A DNA stretch of 46,124 nucleotides, from positions 1 through 46,124 of the forward strand of contig CAINFC010000046.1 of NCBI GenBank assembly GCA_903847975.1, read 5' to 3'. Both the position numbers and the translations under genes were made by a program. This document shows positions 6,884 through 46,124 of this stretch, in pieces. The notes beneath the pieces are model-generated. The model made no database searches. It was not told where the DNA came from and was given only the letters and a program-made list of their open reading frames with translations. This DNA is from an uncultured Acidobacteriota bacterium. Its GTDB lineage: Bacteria > Acidobacteriota > UBA6911 > CAINFC01. How positions within the stretch are numbered: position 1 is the stretch's first letter; each line of letters opens with the position of its first letter.

Positions 6884-6982
6884 ACGGTTCGACAATCACA
6901 ATATCTTCGGCGGCCTGGGCTCCGCGGTGGCGGAAGTCATCGCCGAAAAGGCGCCGGCCCGGCTGCGGCGCATTGGCATGCC
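6884..6982 (+). pseudogene. Scrap of transketolase C-terminal subunit
   Basis: Immediately after the stop of the aldolase remnant lies a piece that reads FDNHNIFGGLGSAVAEVIAE and then KAPARLRRIG. This corresponds to the C-terminal domain of the transketolase subunit at 30696-31658. From 6891 to 6977 it matches 31437-31523 at 84 of 87 bases, far closer than the neighbouring aldolase remnant is to its relative. Past this point the sequence is unrelated. It has no start of its own and is a fragment left by deletion or recombination. Confidence 0.85.
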
Positions 6983-30695: not shown

Positions 30696-31658
30696 GTGGA
30701 AAACCAACTGGCCCCTCGCGACGTCCTCGGGCAAACGCTGATCGAATTGGCCGAGGAGGATTCTTCTATTGCTGTCCTGGATGCCGACTTCTGCACCGCC
30801 TCCAAAATCACCGCTTTCCGGGACCGCTTTCCGGATCGCTTCATCCAGGTGGGCATCGCCGAACAGAACATGATGAGTATGGCCGCGGGGCTGAGCACCG
30901 TGGGTTTCACCTGCTTCGCTTCGACAATCTGCGCTTTTTGCTCCCGACGGGCTTGCGATCAGGTGATGACTTCCATCGCCCTTCCCAACCTGAATGTTAA
31001 GATTATCGGCCTGTATGCCGGGCTCTTTGTCGGCAAAAACGGCGCTTCGCACCAGTCCCTGGAAGATATCGGCATCATGCGCTCCATGGCCAACATGACG
31101 GTGGTCCAGCCGCTGGACGCGCGGGAAACAATCCAGGTGCTGCGTTACGCCGCCCGGCACCGCGGGCCGATGTACATGCGCATCGGCCGCGATCCGCTTC
31201 CGCAGTATGTTCCGGACGACTACGTGTTCCGGCCGGGCGGCAGCATCACCCTGCGGCCCGGCGGAGATGTGGCCCTCCTGGCCTACGGGGATCTGATGCC
31301 GCAGGTGATGTCGGCGGCGGAGGGCCTGGCGTCGAAAGGGATCCAGGCCCGGGTTGTCAATATGAGCTCGCTGAAGCCGATCGATGAAGAGGCGGTTCGG
31401 GCGGCCGCAAGGGAAACCGGGCGAATCGTAACGGTCGACAACCACAATATCTTCGGCGGCCTGGGCTCCGCGGTGGCGGAAGTCATCGCCGAAAAGGCGC
31501 CGGCCCGGTTGCGGCGCATCGGCGTGCGCGACGTCTTCGGCAAATCGGGAACCAACGCGGAAATGCTGGCCAGGTTTCATCTTCGTGCCGATGATATCGA
31601 AAAGGAAGTACGGGACTTCCTGGGCCCACGATTCCATGCCGGAAACGCTCCTGGATAA
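30696..31658 (+). CDS. Transketolase, C-terminal subunit
   Basis: Second half of the split transketolase, 320 residues. The pyrimidine-binding domain carries the catalytic glutamate E56 (VGIAEQNMMSMAAGL), preceded by IAVLDADFCTASK. The segment GLFVGKNGASHQSLEDIGIMRSM supplies active-site His and loop residues. The C-terminal domain begins at about 190 (GDVALLAYGDLMPQVMSAAEGL) and includes IVTVDNHNIFGGLGSAVAEV. The start is GTG 30696, directly after the TAA of the partner gene with AAGGAG upstream, indicating coupled translation. Part of its C-terminal domain is repeated as a 99-bp scrap at 6884-6982. Confidence 0.92.
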   Translation: MENQLAPRDVLGQTLIELAEEDSSIAVLDADFCTASKITAFRDRFPDRFIQVGIAEQNMMSMAAGLSTVGFTCFASTICAFCSRRACDQVMTSIALPNLNVKIIGLYAGLFVGKNGASHQSLEDIGIMRSMANMTVVQPLDARETIQVLRYAARHRGPMYMRIGRDPLPQYVPDDYVFRPGGSITLRPGGDVALLAYGDLMPQVMSAAEGLASKGIQARVVNMSSLKPIDEEAVRAAARETGRIVTVDNHNIFGGLGSAVAEVIAEKAPARLRRIGVRDVFGKSGTNAEMLARFHLRADDIEKEVRDFLGPRFHAGNAPG

Positions 31659-39955: not shown

Positions 39956-40136
39956 TCTTTTGCGCCTTCCGGAGGGCGGCCTGGGCCATTTCCAGGGTGG
40001 AGCAGGTCTACCGGATGTAAATGCTCCGGTACCTGGTGTCGACCGCCCACCGGTTTTCACGCCTGCGGATGCCCCGATGCCGGATCGGTTTGCGCGACTT
40101 GATTCTGGCGGTTTGAGTGGATTCCTTTTCGGTCAT
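39956..40136 (-). pseudogene. Tyrosine integrase N-terminal fragment
   Basis: Nearly identical to the first 60 codons of the integrase at 43348-44421 (ARIKSRKPIRHRGIRRR, RWAVDTRYR, CSTLEMAQAALRKAQK). It carries an in-frame TAG where the intact gene has a Trp codon, and the catalytic domain is absent. The same 106-bp spacer and promoter separate it from the hsdM copy on the other strand. Confidence 0.9.
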
Positions 40137-40184
40137 CCTGCGATTTTATTTCAATTTTCCCTTTTGCAAAGGCAGCATCCCTTA

Positions 40185-40214
40185 TTGACCCGCCTTAGGG
40201 CCGGCCGTTAGAAT
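40185..40214 (+). promoter_or_regulatory. hsdM promoter, left copy
   Basis: TTGACC (40185-40190) and TAGAAT (40209-40214) with an 18-base spacer, conserved in position in the right copy. Confidence 0.6.
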
Positions 40215-40242
40215 AGCAGCATTGTTGATATTTGGAAAACCT

Positions 40243-41578
40243 ATGGCCAATCCCAATCTCTCTTCGTTCATCTGGTCGGTGGCCGATTTGCTGCGCGGTG
40301 ACAACAGCAGTCCGAATATGGTAAGGTCATTCTGCCCTTCACCGTGCTGCGGCGCTGGACTGCGTGCTGGAGCCTACCAAAGCGGCGGTGTTAGCCGAAA
40401 AATCGCTCCGCGAGGCTGCCGGGATGAATCCTGAACCGTTCCTGCTGAAAAAATCAGGGCAGCTCTTTTTCAACACCTCGCCGCTCGATTTGAAGAAGCT
40501 CATGGGGGACCAGGACAACATCGGCGAGAGCATCCGCGCTTATATGCAGGGCTTCTCCCCGGCGGTGCGCGATATTTTCGAGCGCTTCGATTTTCACACC
40601 CAGATCGACCGGCTCGCCAAGGCCGGGCTGCTCTACCTGGTCACCGAGAAATTCGCCGGCATCGACCTGCACCCCGATGCGGTCAGCAACAGCCAGATGG
40701 GCCTGATCTTCGAGGAGCTGATCCGCGAGTTCGCCTAGCTTTCCAACGAAACCGCCGGGGAGCACTTCACCCCGCGGGACGTCATCCGGCTGATGGTCAA
40801 CCTGATCCTGATCCTGATCGAGGATGACGAGATCCTCACCCGGCCGGGGGTGGTCCGCTCGCTCTACATGCTTTCCACCCCCCCCTTCGGGGTGGAGTGG
40901 AAGAAGATCGAGCGCGAGATCCGCAAGGAGGCCGAGGAGAAGGGCACCAGCGGGCGTTTCGGGCCCGGACTGTCGCGGGTCAGCGACGGCTCGCTGCTCT
41001 TCCTGCTGCACCTGGTCTCCAAGATGAGGCCGGCCAAGGATGGCGGCAGCCGCTTCGGGATCGTGCTGAACGGCCCCCCTCTTTTTACCGGCGGGGCCGG
41101 CTCGGGGGAAAGCGAGATCCGCCGCTATGTGCTGGAAAACGACCTGATCGAGGCCATCATCGGGCTGCCGACGGACATGTTCTACAATACCGGCATCGGC
41201 ACCTATGTCTGGATCCTCACCAACCGCAAGAGCCCGCCACGCCGGGGGAAGGTGCAGCTCATCGATGCCGGCGGCTTCCGGCAGAAGATGCGCATAAGCC
41301 TGGGTAGCATGCGCAAGGAGCTCAGTGCGGAACAGATCGAGGACATTACCCGCATCTTCGGGGAGTTTGCCGAGGTAACCCGCGACGGGGTGCCCGTCTG
41401 CCGCATTTTCCGAAACGAGGATTTCGGCGACCGCACGATCACCGTGGAGCGGCCGGAGCGGGATGAAAAAGGAAACCCGGTGCTGGTAGCCAAGGGGAGG
41501 GGAGAGGGCAAGCCTCAGCCGGACGCCGCGCCGCGCGACACGGAAAACTTGCCCCTCGGGGAGGATGTCGAGGACTAA
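40243..41578 (+). pseudogene. hsdM: Type I restriction-modification methyltransferase subunit HsdM, decayed copy
   Basis: Close copy of the hsdM at 44528-46015 with several lesions. There are two single-base deletions at about 40303 and 40352, and a GAG-to-TAG stop at 40736-40738. A 6-bp in-frame expansion (ATCCTG repeated) lies at about 40805. A 219-bp in-frame deletion at 40867/40868 removes the SAM-binding DPTAGTGGM region and is flanked by CTAC on both sides in the intact copy. The catalytic NPPF has become TPPF. The C-terminus stops early (LPLGEDVED), although it extends further than the right copy into normal HsdM sequence (DTENLPL). It cannot methylate DNA. Confidence 0.93.
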
Positions 41579-41964
41579 TTCCGGCGGGAGGAGATGGCTC
41601 TCAGCGCCTGGGGTGAGATCGTTCGAGAAGAATGGTTGCGATCCGGGCCACTCCGCAAGGAGGTCCGGTTGGCGGAGTTTGTCATCATGCCGAATCATTT
41701 TCACGGCATCGTCTGCATCGAAACGCCGAAAGGTGGAAGAACCGAAGCCACCCGAACCCTCGGCTCGATAGTCCGTGGTTTCAAAGCCGCGGTTACCCGA
41801 AGAATCCGCATGCAAAGCGACCGACCGGAAGCCGAAGTATGGCAGCGCAACTTCTATGAGCACGTGATTCGCAACCAGGAAGACTACGAGCGCATTGCTG
41901 CCTACATCCTCGACAATCCCATAAACCGGGAAAAAGACGACTACCACAAAACAACCGAAACCCA

Positions 41965-41977
41965 GGTTGGGCCAACC
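41965..41977 (+). repeat. Short perfect dyad at the 3' end of the RAYT fragment
   Basis: GGTTGG-G-CCAACC, 6-bp arms with a 1-base centre, inside the 3' end of the transposase fragment. It is the kind of palindrome linked with RAYT elements. Confidence 0.5.
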
Positions 41978-41990
41978 ACGGAATGGCCGA

Positions 41991-42017
41991 GTTGCCACCC
42001 AGCAATCGAAACACTTG
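41991..42017 (+). repeat. 27-bp direct repeat, left copy
   Basis: Begins GTTGCCACCC and ends ATCGAAACACTTG. It matches 42199-42225 at 24 of 27 bases, 208 bp apart. Confidence 0.7.
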
Positions 42018-42019
42018 TA

Positions 42020-42040
42020 GGGGCGTGCGGCGCGCGCCCC
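42020..42040 (+). repeat. REP-like hairpin
   Basis: GGGGCG (42020-42025) pairs with CGCCCC (42035-42040) across a 9-base GC-rich loop, preceded by TGTA. This is the form of REP hairpin often found near RAYT genes. A half version (GGGGCGCGCGCG) recurs at about 42124. Confidence 0.65.
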
Positions 42041-42198
42041 AAACCAGCGAAGTAACCAAACCAAACGACCGAAAGAATCAGGTGGAAGACAAGTAAAATG
42101 GGTGAACACGAATCAACCGAATGGGGCGCGCGCGGGAAAACAACCGATCAACCAGACAAAACCCGATGGGCATGATGGGTCACCCACGAAAAAGCCGG

Positions 42199-42225
42199 GT
42201 TGCCACACAAAAATCGAAACACTTG
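42199..42225 (+). repeat. 27-bp direct repeat, right copy
   Basis: Partner of 41991-42017. It ends where the HsdR C-terminal remnant begins, so the pair may frame the REP-bearing insertion. Confidence 0.7.
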
Positions 42226-42228
42226 GAA

Positions 42229-42477
42229 TCGGAAACGCTGCGCCAGCAGGCGGCCGGCAACAGCAAGGAGCAGTTTGCCCATTCCCCCGATTTTCATTCG
42301 GAGTTCATGAATGCCGTCATGGGGGCCCAGGACGCCCACACCCAGATGAGCACACAGACGTTGAACTCCAAAGCGGTGCAGGAGGGGATGAAGCATATCC
42401 TGCTCCAGCATTCCGGCCTCTGGGAAGCGCTCCGCGCCGCGGCCGCCAGCCAGAAGTCGCCTTCTTTGGTCGAGTAA
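42229..42477 (+). pseudogene. hsdR: Type I restriction enzyme HsdR, C-terminal fragment
   Basis: Reads ETLRQQAAGNSKEQFAHSPD, then HSEFMNAVMGAQDAHTQMSTQTLNSKAVQEGMKHILLQHSGLWEALR. This is the conserved last ~80 residues of HsdR motor/endonuclease subunits. The upstream nuclease, helicase and linker domains are absent. It shows that the left module once carried a full hsdM-hsdS-hsdR operon, of which the middle (about 4 kb) was lost. Confidence 0.85.
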
Positions 42478-42552: not shown

Positions 42553-42795
42553 ATGAGCACGGCAAAAGTAGCCATTACCATAAGAGAAGATTTGCTCGAT
42601 CAGCTGGATGATCTCGTTCGGTCCAAAATCTTTCCAAACCGGAGCAAGGCGGTTCAGGAAGCGGTCGAAGAGAAACTGGCACGATTGAAACGCAGCCGGC
42701 TGGCCCGGGAATGTGCCAAGCTGGATCCTAAGTTTGAACAGGCGCTCGCCGAAGAGGGTTTTTCCGCGGAAAAAGACGAATGGCCCGAATATTGA
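42553..42795 (+). CDS. Ribbon-helix-helix antitoxin (MazE/NdoAI-like)
   Basis: 80 residues. The N-terminal ribbon-helix-helix DNA-binding domain is clear ([34 protein letters not shown]). The C-terminal tail ([27 protein letters not shown]) is acidic and aromatic, as in antitoxins that thread through a MazF dimer. Its last 16 bases overlap the toxin gene, so expression is coupled. The pair would stabilise the island on the chromosome. Confidence 0.92.
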
Positions 42796-43118
42796 GAGGC
42801 GACATTTTCTGGGCGAATCTCGACCCGGCGCAAGGGCGGGAGCAATCCGGTGAGCGTCCTGTTTTGATCTTGAGTCAGGAAGTATTCAATGATCGTTCCG
42901 GCACCGTGATTGCGATGGCATTGACCAGTCAACCGCAAAGAGCCGGCTTCCCGCTCACCTTGGAATTATCCGGTTCCGCACTCCCCAAGAAATCCTGGGT
43001 AAAGATCAGCCAAATCAGGACTCTCTCCGTGGAACGCTTGGGGAAAAAAATCACTAAAATTTCAGCCGAAGAGATCGACCGTATCGTGGAAGGGCTGATC
43101 GAGATTATCGGATGCTAA
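42780..43118 (+). CDS. MazF/PemK-family mRNA endonuclease toxin
   Basis: 112 residues. Canonical start [32 protein letters not shown], with the conserved Gly-Arg-Glu loop and RPVLIL strand. Then [21 protein letters not shown] and [20 protein letters not shown], which holds the family's S/T-Q-I-R-T catalytic region, and [10 protein letters not shown] at the end. It is full length and intact. The MazF family cleaves mRNA at short motifs to stop growth when the antitoxin is lost. An intrinsic terminator follows. Confidence 0.95.
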
Positions 43119-43186: not shown

Positions 43187-43202
43187 CCAATCGGGAAAGG
43201 GA

Positions 43203-43250
<48 letters not shown>

Positions 43251-43347: not shown

Positions 43348-44421
43348 TTATTCCGGGAAAAGTTTTTTGCTCAAATTCTCGACCGCTGCCTTCTTGTGCG
43401 CCCTGGACAGGTGCGAATACCTGGAGGTCATTGAGGGGGATTTATGTCGCAGCTGGTCCTGAACGGTTCTCAAATCGGACCCGGTCATGATCAGCCACGA
43501 GGCGCAGGTGTGCCGGAGGTCATGAAAGTGGAAATCCTTGATGCCTGATTTTCTCAGGGCATTTTTCCATTGCCGTTTTATATCCATCGGCTTTCCGGTT
43601 TTTCCTGGAAAAAGGAGCGGGCCGCTACGGTTAGCCATGACCTTTTTTAAGATGTCGACGGCACGATCCGGGAGGGTTACCGCTTCCGGCTCGCCGCTCT
43701 TCGGGTCGGGGAGGAGCAGGATCTTTTCTTTTAAGAGCACCTGGTCTTTGCGCAGTCCGAGGATCTCGCTTTTCCTCATGCCGGTTAAAATGGCCAGCTC
43801 CACAATGGGCCTGATCGCAGGGGCACAAGCATTCAGCAGTCGCTCGACTTCCCCTTGCTCCAGGAAGCGATTGCGTCCGGGGCCTTCTTTGCTGGGTCTG
43901 ATTCCCAGCACCGGATTCGCCGAAATCTCTTCTTTTTCAACGGCGAGCTGAAACATCCTTCGTAAAACACCCAGCATCCGGTTGACCGCTACGGCGCCGC
44001 CTTTCTCGGAATGGGAAGTCGGGGTGTAGTTGTCCTTCCAGGCCTGAATGCTCTTCTTGTTGATGTTCTTCAGGTTGGTATCCTTGCCGAAGTGCCCTTC
44101 CAGTATCGACACCATGGAGCGGACATTTTGGATGGACTTCAGCCGGTTCTTCTCGCAGTGTGCCAAATACTCCGAGCACAGCTTCCCGAAGGTCCATTTC
44201 GGGTCTTTAGGCTTATCCAGAAAGCGGCCCTCATCGATATCCTTTTGCGCCTTCCGGAGGGCGGCCTGGGCCATTTCCAGAGTGGAGCAGGTCTCCCAGA
44301 TGTAAATGCCCCGGTACCTGGTGTCGACCGCCCACCGGTTTCCGCGCCTGCGGATGCCCCGGTGCCGGATCGGTTTGCGCGACTTGATTCTGGCGGTTGG
44401 GATTGGTTCCTTTTCGGTCAT
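43348..44421 (-). CDS. Tyrosine recombinase / phage-type integrase
   Basis: Site-specific recombinase, 357 residues, likely moving the island at tRNA-Lys. An N-terminal arm-binding region (about 1-70) precedes the SAM-like core-binding domain (about 75-165; TFGKLCSEYLAHCEKNRLKS, VNRMLGVLRRMFQLAVEKEEI). In the catalytic domain R216 (TGMRKSE), K241 (PKSGEPE), H300 and R303 (HFHDLRHTCASW), H326 (LRHKS) and the nucleophile Y335 (SRYSHLS) are all present. The gene is intact, so the element may still be mobile. It is divergent from hsdM with 106 bp between. Its N-terminal part is repeated as a pseudogene at 39956-40136. Confidence 0.95.
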   Translation of the reverse strand: MTEKEPIPTARIKSRKPIRHRGIRRRGNRWAVDTRYRGIYIWETCSTLEMAQAALRKAQKDIDEGRFLDKPKDPKWTFGKLCSEYLAHCEKNRLKSIQNVRSMVSILEGHFGKDTNLKNINKKSIQAWKDNYTPTSHSEKGGAVAVNRMLGVLRRMFQLAVEKEEISANPVLGIRPSKEGPGRNRFLEQGEVERLLNACAPAIRPIVELAILTGMRKSEILGLRKDQVLLKEKILLLPDPKSGEPEAVTLPDRAVDILKKVMANRSGPLLFPGKTGKPMDIKRQWKNALRKSGIKDFHFHDLRHTCASWLIMTGSDLRTVQDQLRHKSPSMTSRYSHLSRAHKKAAVENLSKKLFPE

Positions 44422-44469
44422 CCTGTGATTTTATTACAATTTTCTATTTTGCAAAGACAGCATCGCTCA

Positions 44470-44499
44470 TTGACCCGCCTAAGGGCCGGCCGGTAGAAT
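44470..44499 (+). promoter_or_regulatory. hsdM promoter, right copy
   Basis: TTGACC (44470-44475), 18-base spacer, TAGAAT (44494-44499); the same layout as the left copy, which supports it as a real promoter. Confidence 0.6.
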
Positions 44500-44527
44500 A
44501 GCAGCATTATAGATATTTGGAAAAATT

Positions 44528-46015
44528 ATGGCCGATCCCAATCTCTCTTCGTTCATCTGGTCGGTGGCCGATCTGCTGCGCGGCGACTACAAGCAGTCCG
44601 AATACGGCAAGGTCATCCTGCCCTTCACCGTGCTGCGTCGGCTGGACTGCGTGCTGGAACCCACCAAGGCGGCGGTGCTGGCGGAGAAGAAGATCCGTGA
44701 GACGGCCGGGATCAACCCCGAACCGTTCCTGCTGAAAAAATCAGGGCAGCTCTTTTTCAACACCTCGCCGCTCGATTTGAAGAAGCTCATGGGCGACCAG
44801 GACCACATCGGCGAGAACCTCCGCGCCTATATGCAGGGCTTCTCCCCGGCGGTGCGCGATATTTTCGAGCGATTCGATTTTCACACCCAGATCGACCGGC
44901 TGGCCAAGGCCGGGCTTCTCTACCTGGTCACTGAGAAATTCGCCGGCATCGACCTGCACCCCGATGCGGTCAGCAACAGCCAGATGGGCCTGATCTTCGA
45001 GGAGCTGATCCGCAAGTTCGCCGAGCTTTCCAACGAAACCGCCGGGGAGCACTTCACCCCGCGGGACGTCATCCGGCTGATGGTCAACCTGATCCTGATC
45101 GAGGATGACGAAATCCTAACCCGGCCGGGGGTGGTCCGCTCGCTCTACGACCCGACGGCGGGAACCGGGGGCATGCTCAGTCTGACGGAAGAGCATCTGG
45201 CGGCCATGAACCCCAACGCCCGGCTGGTGCTTTACGGGCAGGAGCTGAACCCCGAGTCCTACGCCATCTGCAAGGCGGACATGCTCATCAAGGGGCAGGA
45301 CATCGCCAACATCATCTTCGGCAACACCCTATCGGCCGACGGGCTGCCCGGCAAGCGCTTCGACTACATGCTTTCCAATCCCCCCTTCGGGGTGGAGTGG
45401 AAGAAAATCGAGCGCGATATCCGCAAGGAGGCCGAGGAGAAGGGCTACAGCGGGCGCTTCGGGCCCGGACTGCCGCGGGTCAGCGACGGCTCGCTCTTGT
45501 TTCTGCTGCACCTGGTCTCCAAGATGCGGCCGGCCAAGGACGGCGGCAGCCGCTTCGGGATCGTGCTGAACGGCTCGCCTCTTTTTACCGGCGGGGCCGG
45601 CTCCGGGGAAAGCGAGATCCGCCGCTATGTGCTGGAAAACGACCTGGTCGAGGCCATCATCGGGCTGCCGACGGACATGTTCTACAACACTGGCATCAGC
45701 ACCTACGTCTGGATCGTCACCAACCGCAAGAGCCCGGTGCGCCGGGGGAAGGTGCAGCTCATCGACGCCGGCGGCTTCTGGCAGAAGATGCGCAAAAGCC
45801 TGGGCAGCAAGCGCAAGGAGCTCAGCGCGGAACAGATCGAGGACATCACCCGCATCTTCGGGGAGTTTGGCGAAGTAACCCGCGACGGGGTGCCCGTCTG
45901 CCGGATTTTCCGCAACGAGGATTTCGGCTACCGCACCATCACCGTGGAGCGGCCGGAGCGGGACGAAAAAGGAAACATGGTGTTATATGACCGCGCATAT
46001 ATAAGAGGACAATAA
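44528..46015 (+). CDS. hsdM: Type I restriction-modification methyltransferase subunit HsdM, C-terminally truncated
   Basis: N6-adenine methyltransferase subunit, 495 residues. The N-terminal helical domain ([15 protein letters not shown] to about 165) is followed by the Rossmann methylase domain with [15 protein letters not shown]-binding DPTAGTGGM (208-216), [12 protein letters not shown] and catalytic NPPF (284-287). It follows the family normally as far as [22 protein letters not shown], then ends in [12 protein letters not shown]. Intact HsdM proteins continue for a further C-terminal helical region that contacts HsdS; the left copy retains some of this. The truncation coincides with AT-rich DNA from about 45982. 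The catalytic core is intact, but assembly with HsdS is doubtful. Confidence 0.9.
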
Positions 46016-46124
46016 CGCTTATAACCCTTGTGCCATAACTGGCTCTCGCCAGATAAAACTACTATTTATTCTCAAAAGGTTGATTTTACTACTTGTTTCA
46101 ATGAATTCCCCCAGGTTATAATAC
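45982..46124. other. AT-rich sequence interrupting hsdM, probable insertion boundary
   Basis: Composition drops sharply from GC-rich hsdM to AT-rich DNA. A perfect stem-loop CTGGC-TCTC-GCCAG lies at 46039-46052. TTATAACC (46019-46026) and GGTTATAA (46114-46121) form an inverted pair. The remainder is outside the window, so the element cannot be named; an insertion sequence or small non-autonomous element is possible. Confidence 0.5.

Follow-up and report, generated by a model that had tools for sequence, protein, structure and literature searches.

The 0.9-kb stretch between positions 41579 and 42477 is a real chimera, in which the end of a type I hsdM gene, a fragment of a REP-associated transposase (RAYT), a REP hairpin and the last codons of hsdR lie one after the other on the forward strand. 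The window analyzed here is the whole of one contig (C46, 46,124 bases) from a genome whose 326 contigs total 8.13 Mb (completeness 99.12%), for which the nearest relatives available for comparison belong to the same class. The explanation that we prefer, with moderate confidence, is that a REPtron inserted into hsdR and that a single short-homology deletion later took out the middle of the operon. The features concerned are the following:

39957..40136, reverse strand: remnant of the 5' part of an integrase gene, a copy of the beginning of the intact one at 43348-44421
40243..41590, forward strand: hsdM pseudogene of unit 1, with HsdM_N and N6_Mtase domains, aligned with copy 2
41591..41926, forward strand: RAYT fragment (NF047646; alignment to L030, L031 and L032)
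41943..42017, forward strand: 75-nt direct repeat, copy 1, ending with the 27-bp repeat 41991-42017
42017..42040, forward strand: REP, with a GTAG head (42017-42020) that overlaps the stem foot and a CT (42014-42015) just 5'
42122..42133, forward strand: 12-nt inverted match to the REP 3' arm
42151..42225, forward strand: 75-nt direct repeat, copy 2, ending with the 27-bp repeat 42199-42225, with a CT at 42222-42223 and abutting hsdR
42226..42477, forward strand: last 83 codons of hsdR with the stop, with homologues in 50 of 80 named hsdM-relative loci
42553-42795, forward strand: RHH antitoxin-like ORF of unit 1, downstream of the hsdR tail (below the cut-off with RHH_1, E 0.0013)
42780-43118, forward strand: PemK/MazF-like toxin ORF of unit 1, downstream of the hsdR tail (PemK_toxin, E 5.2e-30)
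43201..43250, reverse strand: 50 bp that match the 3' portion of the tRNA-Lys gene on contig C65 with 100% identity

Between 39957 and 46015, two related integrase-hsdM units lie in tandem and adjoin the tRNA-Lys-derived 50-bp match, which is taken as an att site between the two. Rfam scored 43204-43272 as a whole tRNA (33.9 bits), and ARAGORN called no tRNA there. On contig C65 (locus L060, 1475-2760), the intact tRNA-Lys gene is followed by what appears, by eye, to be an integrase gene on the opposite strand. When regions of the window were compared with each other, 39957-41590 matched 44242-45985 at about 92%. The integrase remnant was called from the alignment of 39957-41166 with 44242 onwards (also about 92%), its right limit (40136) being estimated by offset, and the intact copy at 43348-44421 is an integrase (Pfam PF00589, E 2.9e-33). 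The hsdM copies of the two units show a dN/dS of 0.18 (49 synonymous and 31 nonsynonymous differences) and thus diverged mostly as working genes, so that an in-place tandem duplication is not favored and the separate arrival of two related islands fits better. In unit 2, hsdM is itself broken at ~45984, near codon 486, by an insertion sequence that is repeated at contigs C44 and C40. This element (45980-46124) has a terminal inverted match, the contig ends inside it, and its ORF on C40 is presumably IS630-like. Completing unit 2 as an intact sister copy failed, since the rest of its hsdM was found nowhere else in the genome. Elsewhere in the window, a 93-nt direct repeat occurs at 6889-6981 and 31435-31527 (96% identical, 24.5 kb apart).

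The hsdM gene of unit 1, which starts at ~40243 and is identical to hsdM copy 2 at 1194 of 1301 positions, is dead. Two 1-nt deletions (~40306 and ~40354) shift its frame, codon 166 is a TAG, 219 nt are deleted at ~40864, and a TAA stands at 41576-41578. As these lesions are independent of the chimera and hsdM itself is broken, no methylase was spared, and the proposal of the first-pass annotation that only the restriction half of the operon was lost does not hold. Position 41578 had also been read as the natural end of hsdM; the TAA stands where most of the relatives shown have a Tyr codon, and hsdM homology extends past it to ~41590. In HsdM relatives (71-88% identical over the best segment of the protein), the C-terminus reads like EDVEAYFKREVLPHAPDAW, and the window reads EDVED, the stop and the retained FRRE, with RAYT sequence from 41591, so that about 59 codons of the tail are lost (counted on L067). 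DNA comparison of 41200-41700 with the 80 loci gave 85 matches: 35 end at 41589 or 41591, 6 reach 41600 or 41610, and 44 stop earlier. This left junction (41590/91) lies inside coding sequence, without a REP or any known signal, and shows a putative GAG microhomology of 1-5 nt, the length of which depends on the ancestral sequence. In L082 (a Verrucomicrobiales MAG), a GIY-YIG domain sits in frame within HsdM after LPHAPD (Pfam E 2.7e-13), a few codons from the point that corresponds to the left breakpoint, on a single 3-kb contig.

At the other end of the stretch, the HsdR C-terminus that had been described there was recovered at 42226-42477 with its homologues in 50 of the 80 loci, and it aligns with HsdR tails at 48-72% identity. 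In 36 DNA matches, hsdR homology starts at 42224 in 12, at 42226 in 11 and later in 13; two matches to Azospirillum plasmids both begin at 42224, and a plasmid search returned four records, which match the hsdR part only. The left landmark was found in 76 of the 80 loci, the right one in 50 and both in 49, and in these 49 the distance from the hsdM breakpoint to the hsdR-tail landmark is 4324-9068 bp (median 5707), while the same two landmarks are only 635 bp apart in the window. The loss of several kilobases of hsdS-hsdR, previously put at about 4 kb, is therefore well founded. Within 41920-42226, no hsdS or hsdR remnant was found, the matches being weak (best E 0.07). The locus is thus like type I hsdMSR in the identity of its HsdM and HsdR tail to those of relatives, and unlike it in having no hsdS, an hsdM broken at several points and only 83 codons of hsdR, so that the intact hsdM, hsdS and hsdR of a type I restriction-modification system are not present. 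A class-level search of 38 genomes, including this one, gave no intact ancestor of the island and no relative of the whole segment. A chimera made during metagenome-type assembly, to which the 326 contigs and the end of this contig in a repeated insertion sequence might point, is very unlikely, given that both junctions are clean and lie on one contig and that the segment from the RAYT to the 27-bp repeat is unique in the genome, which leaves no repeat to misjoin at 41591.

The fragment between the two genes matches NF047646 (REP_Tyr_transpos) with E 4.5e-19. Its 68.8 bits fall short of the curated 80-bit cut-off, which is consistent with truncation, since the fragment spans profile positions 44-133 of 146. 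Against Pfam Y1_Tnp it also stays below the cut-off (E 3e-4, 21.3 versus 23 bits). It is not full-length: about 46 N-terminal residues are absent in comparison with L030, the fragment starting at about residue 47. Its HUH motif reads HFH (41696-41704) and three candidates for the catalytic Tyr follow (41855, 41885 and 41903). The earlier identification of a RAYT-like fragment stands. A frame without stop runs from 41579 to 42055, through the REP hairpin; a REP is present only on the 3' side of the fragment, the left side being gone at the hsdM junction.

Searching the genome with NF047646 (E up to 1) gave seven matches, namely, one above the cut-off, the window fragment (41648-41926) and three longer proteins (E 2e-6 to 4e-5), the remaining two being weak. 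The full-length RAYT for which the first-pass annotation recommended a search therefore exists (locus L177, contig C213). It is bordered on both flanks by another palindrome, AGAGTACAGCCTTTAGGCTG-like, so that the sole RAYT above the family cut-off does not pair with the REP of the window, and TAGGGGCG is not in the loci (~3 kb each) of the other five matches. The fragment is not a copy of the C213 gene either: besides the different palindromes, a search of the genome with the fragment (E 1e-3) returned only itself.

A RAYT is no standard member of such operons, as the fragment matches only one of the 80 loci (L127, E 1e-3). A profile search found a Y1-type transposase in three of the 80 (L127, L091 and L132), all among the 49 with both landmarks. 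In L127 (a Gammaproteobacterium MAG, which had served to train one of the two transposase profiles and not the other), a RAYT (NF047646 E 1.2e-39) with its own GTAG palindromes lies just upstream of the full hsdR start, and ahead of this RAYT is a short stretch that reads like an hsdR start. An IS200/IS605-type transposase separates hsdM from the hsdR tail in L091, and L132 has a weak Y1-type ORF and then a second hsdM 3' end. With two of these three matches weak or IS200-like, insertion at this place is uncommon.

The hairpin GGGGCG...CGCCCC (42020-42040), which had been noted before, is real, with a 9-bp stem and a 3-nt loop (GGC) that only 3 of 200 shuffles fold as well. The GGTTGG/CCAACC dyad mentioned alongside it is present as letters, but folds no better than chance (equaled by 58 of 200 shuffles; z -0.56). 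As had been anticipated, the hairpin recurs in the genome: exact copies of its 20-nt core number 12, the one in the window included, and allowing up to three mismatches on both strands gave 57 raw matches versus 3 for a reversed-pattern control. Because the core is nearly self-complementary, many sites were counted twice, and merging left 39 sites on 27 contigs, again with the window copy; some of the sites with three mismatches may be chance. Among the sites listed, not all carry GTA before the stem. The window hairpin itself has the GTAG head, the palindrome and the many genomic copies of a GTAG REP. The word GTAGGGGC lies close to where the RAYT ORF ends (on either strand, from 60 nt before to 240 nt after that point) in 9 of 30 loci with a RAYT (29 from other genomes and L127) and the reversed word in none, indicating that the REP of the window belongs with this kind of RAYT.

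Five pairs of REP hairpins, 115-117 nt apart, are found elsewhere in the genome, which is like the inverted REP pairs known as REPIN or BIME. In the window, the 12-nt match at 42122-42133 is perhaps a truncated second REP. Unlike a REPIN or BIME, the window copy thus has a second arm of at most 12 nt and a spacer not clearly related: in eight comparisons of the spacer between REP and 12-nt arm with the paired REPs of the host, the best score was 13; in one comparison 2 of 500 shuffles reached the score, and in each of the remaining seven 17 to 114 of them did so. The window hairpin was therefore rejected as a full copy of the paired element, since the hairpin matches (26 to 32 nt) and the spacer does not.

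The 27-bp direct repeat (24 of 27 identical) had been correctly recognized at 41991-42017 and 42199-42225. It forms the end of the longer 75-nt repeat (56 of 75 identical; local alignment score 58, reached by 0 of 1,000 shuffles). The expectation that it might recur in the genome was not borne out, both copies found at up to three mismatches being in the window, and viral_contigs held no match to the exact pattern, so that a wider mobile element is not supported. Copy 2 of the 75-nt repeat stops exactly at the right junction, like a repeat unit cut by a deletion. This would agree with two deletions flanking a REPtron that formerly lay between hsdS and hsdR, of which one would have taken hsdS together with the hsdM tail and the beginning of the RAYT, and the other the right side of the REP and most of hsdR. 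Although L127 has such a layout, with its RAYT at the hsdS-side edge of hsdR, both deletions must have ended within a unit of less than 1 kb, and we consider this course of events unlikely, if still a serious candidate.

The right junction (42223-42226) adjoins a CT that resembles the CT beside the REP: copy 1 of the repeat ends in CACTTG and continues into the REP as CACTTGTAG, and copy 2, which has the same six letters at its end, continues into hsdR. According to the parts of PMC8266576 on which we draw, TnpAREP cleaves in vitro at a CT located 5' or 3' of the REP, such cleavage next to REPs is reported for three REPtrons, and the strand joined by TnpAREP must end in C. Judged after the fact, the position of the CT at the right junction is suggestive of, and compatible with, RAYT cleavage, and the junction is also compatible with simple microhomology (TG or TTG). 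RAYT cleavage could have taken place at the CT on the 5' side of another REP that is now lost, the free end being joined to hsdR. In favor of this, the letters where copy 2 meets hsdR are those that immediately precede the REP in copy 1, the homology of 12 of the 36 hsdR matches begins right after the CT, and both the cleavage site and the terminal C would fit TnpAREP; CT is, however, a common dinucleotide, the comparison is post hoc, and the left junction has no REP or known signal, which makes this rather improbable. A shade more doubtful is the broader claim that the junction would be a fossil of RAYT cleavage, by which a domesticated REP-spreading transposase deleted the neighboring operon. 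The fragment that remains is N-terminally truncated, so the enzyme must then have been whole or have acted in trans, and the parts of the literature on which we draw describe no RAYT that makes adjacent deletions.

The middle of the operon could likewise have been lost by homologous recombination, either of two REPs or of the two copies of the 27-bp repeat, and REPs are repeated in this genome. Such recombination would be expected to leave one REP or repeat at the junction, though, whereas the left junction is coding and without REP, the hairpin is separated from the right junction by ~185 bp and from the left one by ~430 bp, and both 27-bp copies are still there; we regard it as highly improbable. 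REP-REP recombination in particular was rejected, as neither breakpoint (41590/91, 42223-42226) falls in a REP hairpin. The first-pass annotation had attributed the deletion to RAYT or REP activity or to recombination between REPs; the last of these falls away, and RAYT activity is conceivable at the right junction only.

For the preferred explanation, an insertion into hsdR and one later deletion, the locus would be a dead type I operon (hsdM-hsdS-hsdR) in the more decayed of the two tandem integrase-hsdM units. A REPtron, consisting of a RAYT gene and GTAG REPs, would have entered hsdR, with its right edge at 42223-42226. A deletion would then have joined the FRRE of hsdM (41590) to about residue 47 of the RAYT (41591), probably by illegitimate recombination with little or no homology, and the DNA lost in it would comprise hsdS, the tail of hsdM, most of hsdR and the REPtron's left end. 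Both junctions are placed to within a few bases; the two events, their order and their mechanism are what we infer, and a single deletion is preferred on grounds of parsimony. The RAYT at the hsdR start of L127 is a precedent for the insertion, and among the loci compared there is no exact precedent for one inside hsdR so close to its end. In the literature on RAYTs together with restriction-modification or with hsdR, we found nothing on the subject, which does not prove that nothing exists.

The closest REPtron for comparison is REPtron Sm of Stenotrophomonas maltophilia (group 3 type, GTAG REPs), in the REPSm of which GTAG precedes a perfect palindrome of 16 nt whose arms are separated by 3 nt (PMC8266576, in the part cited here). 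The window shares with it the HUH motif, the REP family profile and a GTAG with a perfect palindrome and a 3-nt loop directly downstream, as well as a REP that is repeated in the genome, partly as inverted pairs. It differs in that the RAYT lacks the N-terminus and the left REP, only a truncated gene stands beside the REP, and the other RAYT of the genome above the cut-off goes with another palindrome.

The product of these events is most likely inert DNA, and the scar, although real, looks like ordinary gene decay. It provides a well-mapped case of the decay of a type I restriction island, in which related units accumulate at a site derived from a tRNA, their reading frames break, transposable pieces are caught and the middle is lost. 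If RAYT cleavage were true, REPtrons would be local deletion makers and the feet of REPs predictable breakpoints. Should the junction at a CT by a REP prove to be a rule, such a deletion signature would offer a genomic test, which would matter all the more because the movement of REPs by RAYTs in cells is still unclear.
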